DNA of 64,000 bases. It comes from Ridgeia piscesae (taxonomy: Eukaryota; Annelida; Polychaeta; Sabellida; Siboglinidae). Made by a program: the position numbers and the translations under genes. Positions 1 through 64,000 of the stretch are shown here, piece by piece. Each line of letters opens with the position of its first letter. The stretch's first letter is position 1. The DNA is taken from the NCBI GenBank assembly GCA_025642075.2, contig JAODUO010000054.1, forward strand, positions 317,501 to 381,500, in the 5' to 3' direction. The notes under the pieces were generated by a model. The model was not told where the DNA came from. It was given only the letters and a program-made list of their open reading frames with translations, and ran no database searches.

Positions 1-40
1 TATATATATATATATATATATATATATATATATATATATT
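1..40. repeat. (TA)n microsatellite at window edge
   Basis: About 20 TA units; continues left of the window. Confidence 0.97.
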
Positions 41-61300: not shown

Positions 61301-64000
61301 GCACCATTTGTATGGTGAACTAGTGACTTACATGATGCTTGTTTGAGGTGGAGTTTATCCATTCACAACCGTGCACCATTTGTATGGTGAACTAGTGACT
61401 TGCATGATGCTTGTTTGAGGTGGAGTGTATCCATTCACAATGTGCACCATTTGTATGGTGAACTAGTGGCTTGCATGATGCTTGTTTGAGGTGGAGTTTA
61501 TGCATTCACAACCGTGCACCATTTGTATGGTGAACTAGTGACTTACCTGATGCTTGTTTGAGGTGGAGTGTATCCATTCACAACCGTGCACCATTTGTAT
61601 GGTGAACTAGTGACTTACCTGATGCTTGTTTGAGGTGGAGTGTATCCATTCACAACCGTGCACCATTTGTATGGTGAACTAGTGACTTACCTGATGCTTG
61701 TTTGAGATGGAGTGTATCCATTCACAACCGTGCACCATTTGTATGGTGAACTAGTGACTTGCATGATGCTTGTTTGAGGTGGAGTGTATCCATTCACAAT
61801 GTGCACCATTTGTATGGTGAACTAGTGACTTACATGATGCTTGTTTGAGGTGGAGTGTATCCATTCACAATGTGCACCATTTGTATGGTGAACTAGTGAC
61901 TTACCTGATGCTTGTTTGAGGTGGAGTGTATCCATTCACAACCGTGCACCATTTGTATGGTGAACTAGTGACTTGCATGATGCTTGTTTGAGGTGGCGTG
62001 TATCCATTTACAACTGTGCACCATTTGTATGGTGAACTAGTGACTTACATGATGCTTGTTTGAGGTGGAGTGTATCCATTTACAACTGTGCACCATTTGT
62101 ATGGTGAACTAGTGACTTACATGATGCTTGTTTGAGGTGGAGTTTATCCATTCACAACCGTGCACCATTTGTATGGTGAACTAGTGACTTGCATGATGCT
62201 TGTTTGAGGTGGAGTGTATCCATTTACAACTGTGCACCATTTGTATGGTGAACTAGTGACTTACCTGATGCTTGTTTGAGGTGGAGTGTATCCATTCACA
62301 ACCGTGCACCATTTGTATGGTGAACTAGTGACTTACCTGATGCTTGTTTGAGATGGAGTGTATCCATTCACAACCGTGCACCATTTGTATGGTGAACTAG
62401 TGACTTGCATGATGCTTGTTTGAGGTGGAGTGTATCCATTCACAAAGTGCACCATTTGTATGGTGAACTAGTGACTTACATGATGCTTGTTTGAGGTGGA
62501 GTGTATCCATTCACAATGTGCACCATTTGTATGGTGAACTAGTGACTTGCATGATGCTTGTTTGAGGTGGAGTGTATCCATTCACAATGTGCACCATTTG
62601 TATGGTGAACTAGTGACTTACCTGATGCTTGTTTGAGGTGGAGTGTATCCATTTACAACTGTGCACCATTTGTATGGTGAACTAGTGACTTACATGATGC
62701 TTGTTTGAGGTGGAGTGTATCCATTCACAATGTGCACCATTTGTATGGTGAACTAGTGACTTGCATGATGCTTGTTTGAGGTGGAGTGTATCCATTCACA
62801 ACCGTGCACCATTTGTATGGTGAACTAGTGACTTACCTGATGCTTGTTTGAGGTGGAGTTTATCCATTCACAACCGTGCACCATTTGTATGGTGAACTAG
62901 TGACTTACATGATGCTTGTTTGAGGTGGAGTTTATCCATTCACAACCGTGCACCATTTGTATGGTGAACTAATGACTTACATGATGCTTGTTTGAGGTGG
63001 AGTGTATCCATTCACAACCATGCACCATTTGTATGGTGAACTAGTGACTTGTATGATGCTTGTTTGAGGTGGAGTGTATCCATTCACAATGTGCACCATT
63101 TGTCCACTGCAGCATGCGTCATATGATCAGCGCATCAGACACTTGGAGGAGGAACGCAAGAAGGCTCAGGATGAGATACGAAGGCGACAGACAGAGGTAT
63201 GTGAGGACTGCACACACTCTGGCTGACAGCCTTTGCAATGTGTGGAAGTTCACTGGTTCAGTAGTAAAGTGTCCTAGTCAGATTTGATGGGTGGATGTGT
63301 GGGTGGGTGGTTGGGTGCATGGGTTAGTGCCTGGATAGGTGGGCACACAGGTGGGTGGCTGCTTGCACGGGTGGGTGCCTGAATGTGTGCGCGTGTGTTG
63401 GTCTCAGTTTGGACTGTGAGAACAGGTAAACATTTGACAGGTTGATTGATGCTATGCACATGTATTTATTATTTGAAAATTATAATTGAAACTAATAATG
63501 TATTATTGTAGTCGCATACTACTTATTAAGTAACTACTATACAGTTGTTTATGTCTACACTTACTAGATTGATATATAATTTACATCAATATTACTTTTA
63601 ATTAACTTTTAGTCCTAGTTCAGATCTCTACAAAAATGAACAAATTAGACATATTTATTTATTTATGTTTATTTATATTTTTACTTGTATTATCATTTTA
63701 ATATCTAAGTTACAATTATATTTTATTTTATCGAATATTGTACTGTAAACATTTCTGAACAGAAGTCTACTTTAGATTTTAGTGTGTAAATAAAGTTATT
63801 AATAGTATTATTATACATGAAGCCAACTGTTTGTGTGTCACCTGTAGATCGGAGCTCTTCAGTCAAAGCTCAGGGACAGTCAATTATCGACACATGACAG
63901 TCTCACTGCCTTAAAGTCAGAGCTGAGTCGACGCGATGACACGATTCAGATGCTGCGTCGAGACGTTCTTCGTCTGCAAGAGAAGAGAGACTCCTTCCAG
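46155..64000 (+). CDS. Long coiled-coil protein, 5' part (11 exons, open at right edge)
   Basis: Eleven plus-strand exons join in phase to 467 residues and continue past the window. Exons: 46155-46346, 47815-47964, 53047-53130, 53930-54061, 55276-55346, 56134-56269, 56788-56955, 57390-57536, 59278-59361, 63113-63196 and 63848-64000. After a Gly-rich N-terminal segment (WAAAVAPGTGGGKHMF) the protein is nearly all charged amphipathic helix rich in E, K, R, Q and L, with no transmembrane segment or signal peptide. A single non-coil patch, about residues 176-206 (STGRWDVDGLKFRAVTFDQV), interrupts it. Such proteins are typically cytoskeletal, centrosomal, Golgi or ciliary, but I cannot name the family. 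Five internal exons are exact multiples of 21 nt, and all but one junction are phase 0. Start: an ATG preceded by CCAAT and E-box motifs. Confidence 0.85.
47815..47964 (+). CDS. Coiled-coil gene exon 2
   Basis: 50 codons, phase 0. Acceptor GTTGTAG, donor GTTTGT. It encodes VRLRTMQSYVSDLCEQN and then EELEKEANKRVAMLEEKLKK, a clear heptad helix. Confidence 0.88.
48415..48690. repeat. Dispersed repeat pair, copy 1
   Basis: It shares a TTGGAC.GGTAAAACCC core, a GGGTGGAC.GGT segment, CAAAGTCATAG and TGTGTCCACCAAAA.ATG in the same order with 49626-49815. Confidence 0.65.
49626..49815. repeat. Dispersed repeat pair, copy 2
   Basis: Second copy of the 48415 element in the same intron, about 1.2 kb away, same orientation. 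Confidence 0.65.
52225..52470. repeat. (TA)n-rich array with ACATGTGTACATATAACAATAC spacers
   Basis: Four TA runs separated by a repeated spacer (TACATATAACAATACAT), period about 80 bp, in the coiled-coil gene's large intron. Confidence 0.9.
53047..53130 (+). CDS. Coiled-coil gene exon 3 (84 nt)
   Basis: 28 codons (four heptads), phase 0, encoding DYSIRCKELEREVKTAILDR, then NAALKLK. Acceptor GTTCCAG, donor GTATGT. Confidence 0.88.
53515..53929 (+). repeat. Minisatellite of about 60 bp ending in the acceptor of coiled-coil exon 4 (about 7 copies)
   Basis: The unit contains CTGTTGTGACCATGAGTATCAG|GA and an AT-rich spacer TGCATATATATGTTAGTGAT. The last, diverged unit supplies the real acceptor TTCATATCAG|GAGG. 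Confidence 0.9.
53930..54061 (+). CDS. Coiled-coil gene exon 4
   Basis: 44 codons, phase 0, from EVQEKSRRLEHHVGLLRED to SNARSTGRWD. Acceptor TCATATCAG, donor GTAAGT. The acceptor is the last unit of a repeat array. Confidence 0.88.
54341..55112 (+). repeat. 35-bp minisatellite, about 22 nearly identical copies
   Basis: The unit is TTGCTTTGCTTACTAGGCAT plus TACAAGTGTTGTTAC. Only a few single-base differences occur across 770 bp, which suggests recent expansion or homogenisation. It is intronic (between coiled-coil exons 4 and 5). Unlike other arrays here it does not touch an exon. Confidence 0.97.
55276..55346 (+). CDS. Coiled-coil gene exon 5
   Basis: 71 nt encoding VDGLKFRAVTFDQVFGSIDE and IAK plus two bases. 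Acceptor TATTGCAG, donor GTAAGT. It is a non-coiled conserved-looking patch. Confidence 0.87.
55645..55925 (+). mobile_element. tRNA-derived SINE
   Basis: The head resembles a tRNA promoter: GGTGTAGTGGCAGGAG (A box-like) and GGGTACAAATCC (B box-like) about 30 nt apart. A body with CTTGGGCAAGTTTTCCACTC and CTCAGCTGCATGAATG and a tail with AGTAAAGTGCTTTGG follow, as in many invertebrate SINEs. It lies in the intron after coiled-coil exon 5. Confidence 0.65.
56134..56269 (+). CDS. Coiled-coil gene exon 6
   Basis: It completes a Thr codon, then reads KSSEEILEGHIHDLRKQI and DKLRSDIYQLKEEHKSSVEQ. Acceptor TGTTGCAG, donor GTGACG. Confidence 0.88.
56355..56787 (+). repeat. Degenerate repeat around GACAGGTGTATGTGTT leading into the exon 7 acceptor
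   Basis: Many imperfect copies of TTGACAGGTGTATG, each an AG|GTGTATG acceptor-like site, run directly into the real acceptor TTGTAG|GTGTATGAG. Confidence 0.75.
56788..56955 (+). CDS. Coiled-coil gene exon 7 (168 nt)
   Basis: 56 codons (eight heptads), phase 0, from VYEKDQALSTVECTLSSSL to KISSLTLE. Acceptor TTGTAG, donor GTATAG. A degenerate repeat of the acceptor region precedes it. Confidence 0.85.
57080..57389 (+). repeat. Degenerate pyrimidine-rich repeat (TGCTGTTGTTTCTCA) before exon 8
   Basis: About 15 imperfect copies of a T/C/G-rich unit run into the exon 8 acceptor TGCTGTTGTTCAG, in effect an extended polypyrimidine tract. Confidence 0.7.
57390..57536 (+). CDS. Coiled-coil gene exon 8 (147 nt)
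   Basis: 49 codons (seven heptads), phase 0, MQGKERKLLGLESKITDLHS to KKEADLARQ. Acceptor TTGTTCAG, donor GTCCGC. Confidence 0.85.
57557..57962 (-). pseudogene. LINE reverse transcriptase C-terminal fragment (decayed)
   Basis: On the minus strand, broken frames read KMKGRVYTTCVRSCLL, then RRRRLRWYGHVEGRDD, then WLKGCTKLVVEG. These are the hallmark end blocks of RTE/other LINE reverse transcriptases. Stops and a frameshift interrupt it. It lies antisense in the intron after coiled-coil exon 8, next to the foldback element. Confidence 0.75.
57965..58499. mobile_element. Foldback MITE with terminal inverted repeats of about 200 bp
   Basis: The left arm starts AAGGGATACTCCAGTCAG and the right arm ends CTGACTGGAGTATCCTTTT. 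Homology continues inward through TTCACAG, ACTTACAT, TATTGGTTGTG, CGTTAATAAACAATTA, GGCGCTGCCATCTTGAGACT and TATGC(G/A)CCAGTGACGTAA. The loop is about 58166-58305. No ORF. It lies in an intron of the coiled-coil gene. Confidence 0.92.
59137..59227. repeat. (TA)n microsatellite
   Basis: TA run with short ATT breaks, about 50 bp before coiled-coil exon 9. Confidence 0.95.
59278..59361 (+). CDS. Coiled-coil gene exon 9 (84 nt)
   Basis: 28 codons, phase 0, LAESTDMIEQLRQELDELQ then EEHRSIENS. Acceptor TTGTTGCAG, donor GTAAGT. Confidence 0.88.
59505..63103 (+). repeat. Minisatellite of about 71 bp, about 50 copies, ending at the exon 10 acceptor
   Basis: The unit is CACCATTTGTATGGTGAACT, AGTGACTTGCATGATGCTTG, TTTGAGGTGGAGTGTATCC and ATTCACAACCGTG. 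Variants at fixed positions (GCATGA/ACATGA/ACCTGA, GTGT/GTTT, ACCGTG/ATGTG) define subtypes. The last unit is cut at CACCATTTGT, immediately followed by the CCACTGCAG acceptor. Confidence 0.97.
63113..63196 (+). CDS. Coiled-coil gene exon 10 (84 nt)
   Basis: 28 codons, phase 0, HASYDQRIRHLEEERKKAQD then EIRRRQTE. Acceptor CCACTGCAG, donor GTATGT. It follows a 3.6 kb repeat array. Confidence 0.88.
63848..64000 (+). CDS. Coiled-coil gene exon 11 (runs off window)
   Basis: At least 51 codons, phase 0, IGALQSKLRDSQLSTHDS to RDVLRLQEKRDSFQ. Acceptor ACCTGTAG. It is still open at the right edge. Confidence 0.85.
   Translation, partial: MGALQSKLRDSQLSTHDSLTALKSELSRRDDTIQMLRRDVLRLQEKRDSFQ

Follow-up and report, generated by a model that had tools for sequence, protein, structure and literature searches.

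Minisatellites and the splice junctions of genes would seem to keep company in the vestimentiferan annelid Ridgeia piscesae, which is considered here in terms of one 64,000-nucleotide stretch of its contig 54 (JAODUO010000054.1, positions 317,501 to 381,500; hereafter 'the window') along with a sample of exons from its genome. Minisatellite arrays are found near junctions in excess in both, with some arrays repeating the junction itself together with adjoining exon. In the sample that excess is found on the acceptor side of introns, that is, at 3′ splice sites, and among expanded arrays rather than two-copy ones. Arrays being grown or kept at acceptors is thus supported while their being 'seeded' at exon borders is unsupported. 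The junction-containing arrays probably are mirage-type minisatellites, i.e., as named in amphioxus, which would be the products of junction-spanning duplication followed by growth and then retention, or tolerance, at 3′ splice sites.

Acceptor-side excess in a genome sample

The sample is based on exons of the myosin, tyrosine-kinase-like, and dynein families, as located by homology in the animal's own genome, with surrounding DNA fetched regardless of repeats. It consists of 58 merged stretches (227,008 bases) and 142 exons, the latter with 130 acceptor-side and 131 donor-side edges whose positions were inferred from protein homology. Exon rows were entered from three search lists (40 of 75, 41 of 149, and 79 of 91, these taken as inside fetched stretches), with 142 of 160 counted. 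Left out of the count were loci L028 and L030 (same match as L029), matches longer than 600 nt, and arrays whose overlap with an exon exceeded 30 nt. As some exons in these stretches surely are unlisted, the test should be conservative. Arrays counted were those found by Tandem Repeats Finder (TRF) with periods of 10 to 200 and scores of at least 80, of which there were 74.

Of these 74 minisatellites, 17 were no more than 20 bp from an exon edge versus 6.7 expected (p = 9e-5), and 22 were no more than 40 bp away versus 9.2 expected (p = 2e-5). The association between arrays and junctions which a first-pass annotation of the window had suggested for this genome therefore is seen beyond the window as well. 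That annotation spoke of exon borders in general, however, and this holds for acceptors (16 arrays within 40 bp versus 4.4 expected, p = 2e-5) but not for donors (6 versus 4.8, p = 0.3). Approximately one acceptor in eight (16 of 130) has a minisatellite no more than 40 bp away. Arrays which straddle an edge, extending no more than 30 nt into an exon match, are distributed similarly, with 9 at acceptors versus 1.9 expected and 1 at donors versus 2.1. Microsatellites (period 1 to 9), serving as a control, were found near edges in 5 of 62 cases versus 6.2 expected. By family, both sides considered, there were 7 of 18 arrays near edges with kinases (1.5 expected) and 11 of 23 with dyneins (5.3 expected).

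Counts were made under various thresholds of score and of distance, with the acceptor excess holding in all those of the main sample count. Two earlier counts, each of a slightly smaller sample, yielded 13 of 67 versus 4.2 expected with picked splice sites and 20 of 67 versus 8.0 expected. When arrays (score of at least 50) were collapsed to points, 17 of 105 were near acceptors versus 5.3 expected and 9 were near donors versus 5.4. As arrays so collapsed cannot create an acceptor excess by filling introns, intron filling is rejected as an artefactual cause.

Array size and the question of birth versus growth

Whether arrays are born at junctions, or instead grow there, may be addressed in terms of copy number. 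Among sample arrays of 1.8 to 2.5 copies (n = 37), which is a small sample, 2 were near acceptors versus 1.8 expected and 3 were near donors versus 1.8. Acceptor counts then were 3 versus 1.4 expected for 2.5 to 5 copies (n = 32), 4 versus 0.8 for 5 to 15 copies (n = 15), and 8 versus 1.8 for more than 15 copies (n = 21). For all arrays of at least 5 copies, given the collapsed null, 12 of 36 were near acceptors versus 2.0 expected (2.6 if uncollapsed) and 4 were near donors versus 2.1. Arrays of this size, that is, are some four to six times more numerous than expected within 40 bp of acceptors in the sample. Since two-copy arrays are at expectation and only expanded ones are enriched, these results argue against seeding at junctions, and the proposal that duplication starts at exon borders thereby is not borne out.

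A tentative generalization is that arrays arise anywhere in introns and yet enlarge preferentially at 3′ splice sites, implying a genome-wide, acceptor-specific force on array growth or retention. No description of such a force on repeats was found in the literature searched. Some of the minisatellites near acceptors come with dozens of intact decoy acceptors. This split between birth and growth also represents a clear prediction, one which is checkable in any long-read genome with RNA data.

Junction-containing arrays

In the window, two genes, SACM1L and ELMO, are on the minus strand and a third, a coiled-coil gene, is on the plus strand. Seven window arrays repeat a splice site along with adjoining exon, with units of 16 to 67 bp in 2 to 54 copies. 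Strict core search identified five of these, a looser core search a sixth, and inspection by eye the seventh. Two further arrays merely abut an acceptor. These arrays, along with one exon of particular interest, are as follows, where a slash indicates the junction and where the SACM1L and ELMO arrays are based on sequence plus gene model:

446 to 1412, minus strand: 65-bp unit, 15 copies, across the SACM1L exon 7 donor
3568 to 3798, minus strand: 39-bp unit, across the SACM1L exon 4 acceptor; unit with TTGTTGCAG/GGCCTTACTTGATTG (GPYLIV)
10889 to 11027, minus strand: 67-bp duplication, 2.1 copies, across the acceptor of ELMO exon 21 (last exon)
11384 to 11691, minus strand: 22-bp unit, 14 copies, across the ELMO exon 20 donor
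11678 to 11809, minus strand: ELMO exon 20, 132 nt (gene model)
11799 to 13566, minus strand: 32-bp unit, 54 copies, across the ELMO exon 20 acceptor; unit with TTGTTGCAG/TCTTCCCTGTC
53524 to 53917, plus strand: 63-bp unit, 6 copies, aligning with the coiled-coil exon 4 acceptor, TATCAG/GA...TGCA (by eye)
about 56380 to 56790, plus strand: degenerate 16-bp unit, TGTTGACAG/GTGTATG, running into the coiled-coil exon 7 acceptor (loose core search)
57132 to 57386, plus strand: degenerate T-rich arrays at coiled-coil exon 8, the nearer abutting, i.e., ending 3 nt before the acceptor
59501 to 63103, plus strand: 72-bp unit, 50 copies, abutting coiled-coil exon 10, i.e., ending 9 nt upstream

All of these had been listed by the first-pass annotation as containing or abutting junctions. 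Containment stands for the SACM1L and ELMO arrays, and less strictly so for coiled-coil exons 4 and 7, whereas at coiled-coil exons 8 and 10 there is abutment rather than containment.

Splice signals have been retained in most copies. Units of the SACM1L exon 7 donor array consist of 43 to 49 nt of exon end with the remainder intron, and there are 13 junction copies beyond the working one, 12 of which have an intact GT. At the SACM1L exon 4 acceptor, AG is intact in 4 of 6 copies. Tandem amplification is found at both junctions of ELMO exon 20: the donor array has 14 nt of exon per unit and an intact GT in 12 of 13 copies, while 51 copies were found by core search of the acceptor array, 50 of them with an intact AG. 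Identity between neighbouring units of that acceptor array is 0.66 in its exon-proximal third versus 0.92 distally, with positions 11980 to 12300, within that third, being degenerate. This degenerate part may consist of older copies or instead may be an assembly fault, and the assembly more generally may misstate the length of arrays as large as 50 copies. The ELMO exon 21 duplication repeats 42 nt of exon, with the upstream copy reaching an in-frame TAG and with its one AG intact (1 of 1).

With coiled-coil exon 4, core search gave no close acceptor copy, though TATCAGG is present in 6 copies. With exon 7 there are 5 loose core copies, 4 with AG intact, and TRF itself reports 56416 to 56502 alone. 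No acceptor-core copy was found by core search in the exon 10 array unit. Exon parts of the SACM1L and ELMO units encode residues in common with the human proteins, and this points to the junction and exon having been the source of the array.

In terms of placement, 37 exons and 71 junctions were considered versus arrays of TRF period 10 to 200 within gene spans, with a null of random placement allowing no more than 60 nt of exon overlap. With scores of at least 50, 8 of 18 arrays were within 20 bp of a junction versus 2.35 expected (p = 0.001), i.e., 6 at acceptors and 2 at donors versus 1.2 expected for each. With scores of at least 80 there were 7 of 15 versus 2.03 expected (p = 0.002). The other 10 of 18 arrays were more than 20 bp from any junction, and two more are found outside of gene spans, so the initial impression that only two or three minisatellites do not touch a junction was too low. 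Those 10 include the coiled-coil exon 7 array, the degenerate part of which TRF did not join, as well as the farther of the exon 8 arrays.

It also had been suggested that units be checked for the junction. In the sample, with all of the 22 near arrays but C1119 considered, 8 were found to possess one or more additional junction-core copies, 7 clearly and 1 doubtfully. The doubtful array is L071:3217-3666, where the chosen acceptor falls inside of the array. Decoys in the sample have an intact AG in 17 of 17, 13 of 13, 7 of 7, 11 of 11, 25 of 37, and 1 of 1 copies, and an intact GT in 11 of 14, with matches left unthinned such that one unit may count twice. Two of the 8 belong to neighbouring kinase paralogues (L058 and L064, on C682), each with an acceptor array of similar unit at the same junction. 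These two arrays may represent a single event. Given that similarity, the array may be older than the duplication of the genes.

Comparison with amphioxus mirages and other systems

Contrary to the first-pass statement that no named system does this, such structures have been both named and described in amphioxus, an animal from which Ridgeia is distant. There, 'mirages' are minisatellite-like tandem duplications across intron-exon boundaries, known from Adh3 and the globins BflGb6 and BflGb9, with PGBD5 added and troponin C named in the second of the two papers (PMC3087553, PMC3902484). As described in these papers, mirages seemingly do not disturb splicing, and intron gain has been proposed. 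Also as described there, mirages span junctions at both acceptors and donors, with units of about 10 to 160 bp and with many copies keeping AG or GT. In Ridgeia, in both window and sample, repeats similarly cross exon-intron boundaries with exon in their units; these units are minisatellite-sized and present in several to many copies, and splice signals are retained in many of those copies.

Differences exist as well. Mirages have been reported gene by gene, in cephalochordates, with RNA evidence and with somatic instability. The Ridgeia arrays by contrast are found in an annelid, have been counted versus a placement null, and are in excess at acceptors to a degree that depends on copy number. 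Among the papers listed by the literature searches made, no report of junction-spanning minisatellites in annelids, tubeworms included, was found. The Ridgeia arrays represent a known type of structure, that of mirages, but in a new phylum, and their acceptor bias and growth rule are new as far as that literature goes. What had been an amphioxus gene curiosity thus is now seen in a second, distant animal lineage, and is countable. Exons found behind tens of near-identical acceptors are, in addition, natural tests of site choice by the spliceosome.

Intron gain by tandem duplication is a related phenomenon in that there, too, splice signals come to be present twice, with a potato RdRp gene reportedly being one such case (PMC4974935). 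The Ridgeia arrays differ by residing inside of introns, with no new intron position shown, though they nonetheless are raw material for intron sliding as well as intron gain. The idea has been modelled by Rogers (as cited in PMC3087553), and near-intron pairs are described from Drosophila (PMC2891723). Intronic minisatellites as such also are known, i.e., from an earthworm metallothionein gene, hence also from an annelid (PMC12783039), and as CeRep25B beside alternate exons in Caenorhabditis elegans (PMC4039745), but in the accessible parts of these papers neither is described as spanning a splice junction. The accessible part of the Ridgeia genome paper (PMC9921365), whose 575-Mb assembly is not evidently the 628-Mb one considered here, indicates that TRF was run and does not mention splice junctions, while the Riftia genome paper (PMC8789280) lacks the terms tandem repeat, minisatellite, satellite, splice, and simple repeat.

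Proposed mechanism and its alternatives

The mirage-type arrays go back to a local tandem duplication that by chance spanned a splice junction, as is shown by units in which the end of the intron, its AG or GT included, is repeated along with exon. The geometry is one of extra copies on the intron side. From conservation of the reading frame we infer that the exon-proximal copy is the one used for splicing, and coding sequence would stay whole because it is this copy, adjoining the exon body, that is used, with the extra copies to its intron side. The array then would enlarge via slippage or unequal exchange, as is usual for minisatellites. The weakest step is the last, for which our leading guess is tolerance or retention of growth at 3′ splice sites, with exon definition choosing the exon-proximal AG. 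If exon definition can pick that AG from among many equal ones, then an array at an acceptor should cost little.

Various considerations weigh against this reading. Tolerance alone, it may be reasoned, would predict arrays at donors at least as often as at acceptors, as transcription reaches a working donor ahead of its decoys but a working acceptor only once its decoys have been passed, and this counts against the last step in its simplest form. The acceptor-over-donor difference taken by itself is modest, at 16:6 (p = 0.05) or, once window arrays are included, 22:8 (p = 0.016), and among myosins considered separately the excess is not significant (4 of 33 versus 2.5 expected, or 0 of 33 versus 1.1 with picked splice sites). 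Copy-number classes were picked post hoc, after score thresholds had been seen, and the numbers are small. Only the above-noted 8 of 22 near arrays, the doubtful one included, contain the junction core, with the rest lying close by but lacking a close copy of the site. Lastly, no consistent gradient of unit divergence was found along arrays, among the ten considered, and growth from one end is rejected on that basis.

Differing from mirage-type retention in its last step only is a mutational growth bias, with arrays expanding faster at the intron end owing to DNA or transcription structure, independent of selection on splicing. Enrichment confined to arrays of at least 5 copies and to the acceptor side, with microsatellites unaffected, is consistent with such a bias, and for that last step it is about as likely as tolerance or retention, though as an overall account it seems rather unlikely. 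Sense-strand pyrimidine content is not higher in near arrays (0.521, 22 arrays) than in far ones (0.548, 55 arrays), so the polypyrimidine tract does not readily account for the pattern and has been rejected as its cause. That duplication instead starts preferentially at exon borders, via microhomology or R-loops, is improbable: junctions within some units, along with the overall enrichment, would fit with this, but two-copy arrays are at expectation and donors lack enrichment. Microhomology of the CAG/G type, as had been put forward, also is not seen in the window's one young, two-copy case, that of ELMO exon 21, where the sequences joined by the 67-bp duplication, TTACTG and TAGATG, have but one perfect base in common (4 of 5 in TACNG).

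It is highly improbable, too, that no link exists, i.e., that arrays simply abound in introns, with those at exons catching a reader's eye. Arrays of period 10 to 200 do cover 13.3% of 256,819 sampled bases, most arrays are off junctions, and the myosin set is not significant, but the sample was drawn blind to repeats, with its 40-bp excess seen nonetheless, and the acceptor excess persists under the collapsed null. Barely credible is an origin through insertion, at splice sites, of mobile units, whether introner-like or otherwise. Many introns do carry arrays, but array units differ between loci, and the exon part of junction-bearing units matches the local exon. By eye, across the window and the near arrays, no one family was found at many introns, the two neighbouring paralogues excepted.

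Two further candidates were rejected. Array units are not generally splice-like on the sense strand, as across 71 arrays, whether near or far, the two strands did not differ significantly, and the pattern CAGGTAAGT-N5-CAGG is not in excess in the genome, with 27 matches versus 37 for the reversed pattern. Of local note among matches, C692:155219-155320 has seven, 14 bp apart and each with a perfect donor consensus, CAGGTAAGT, and C1155:161130-161722 has five.

Gene models and intergenic DNA in the window

The protein joined from the ELMO exons is 96% identical to NP493_54g03013 of Ridgeia piscesae over 56% of length. That published protein (P0062) consists of modelled exons 1 to 13, except for 17 residues from one unmodelled exon at about 20753 to 20803. 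The published model stops, before exon 20, at a one-base frameshift in exon 13 (18190 to 18200), which may be an assembly error or instead a real break. The coiled-coil gene model is based only on open frames plus splice consensus. Between genes, at 26700 to 46000, the window contains long microsatellites along with only two arrays of period 10 to 200 (score of at least 50), which is fewer than are found in the gene spans.

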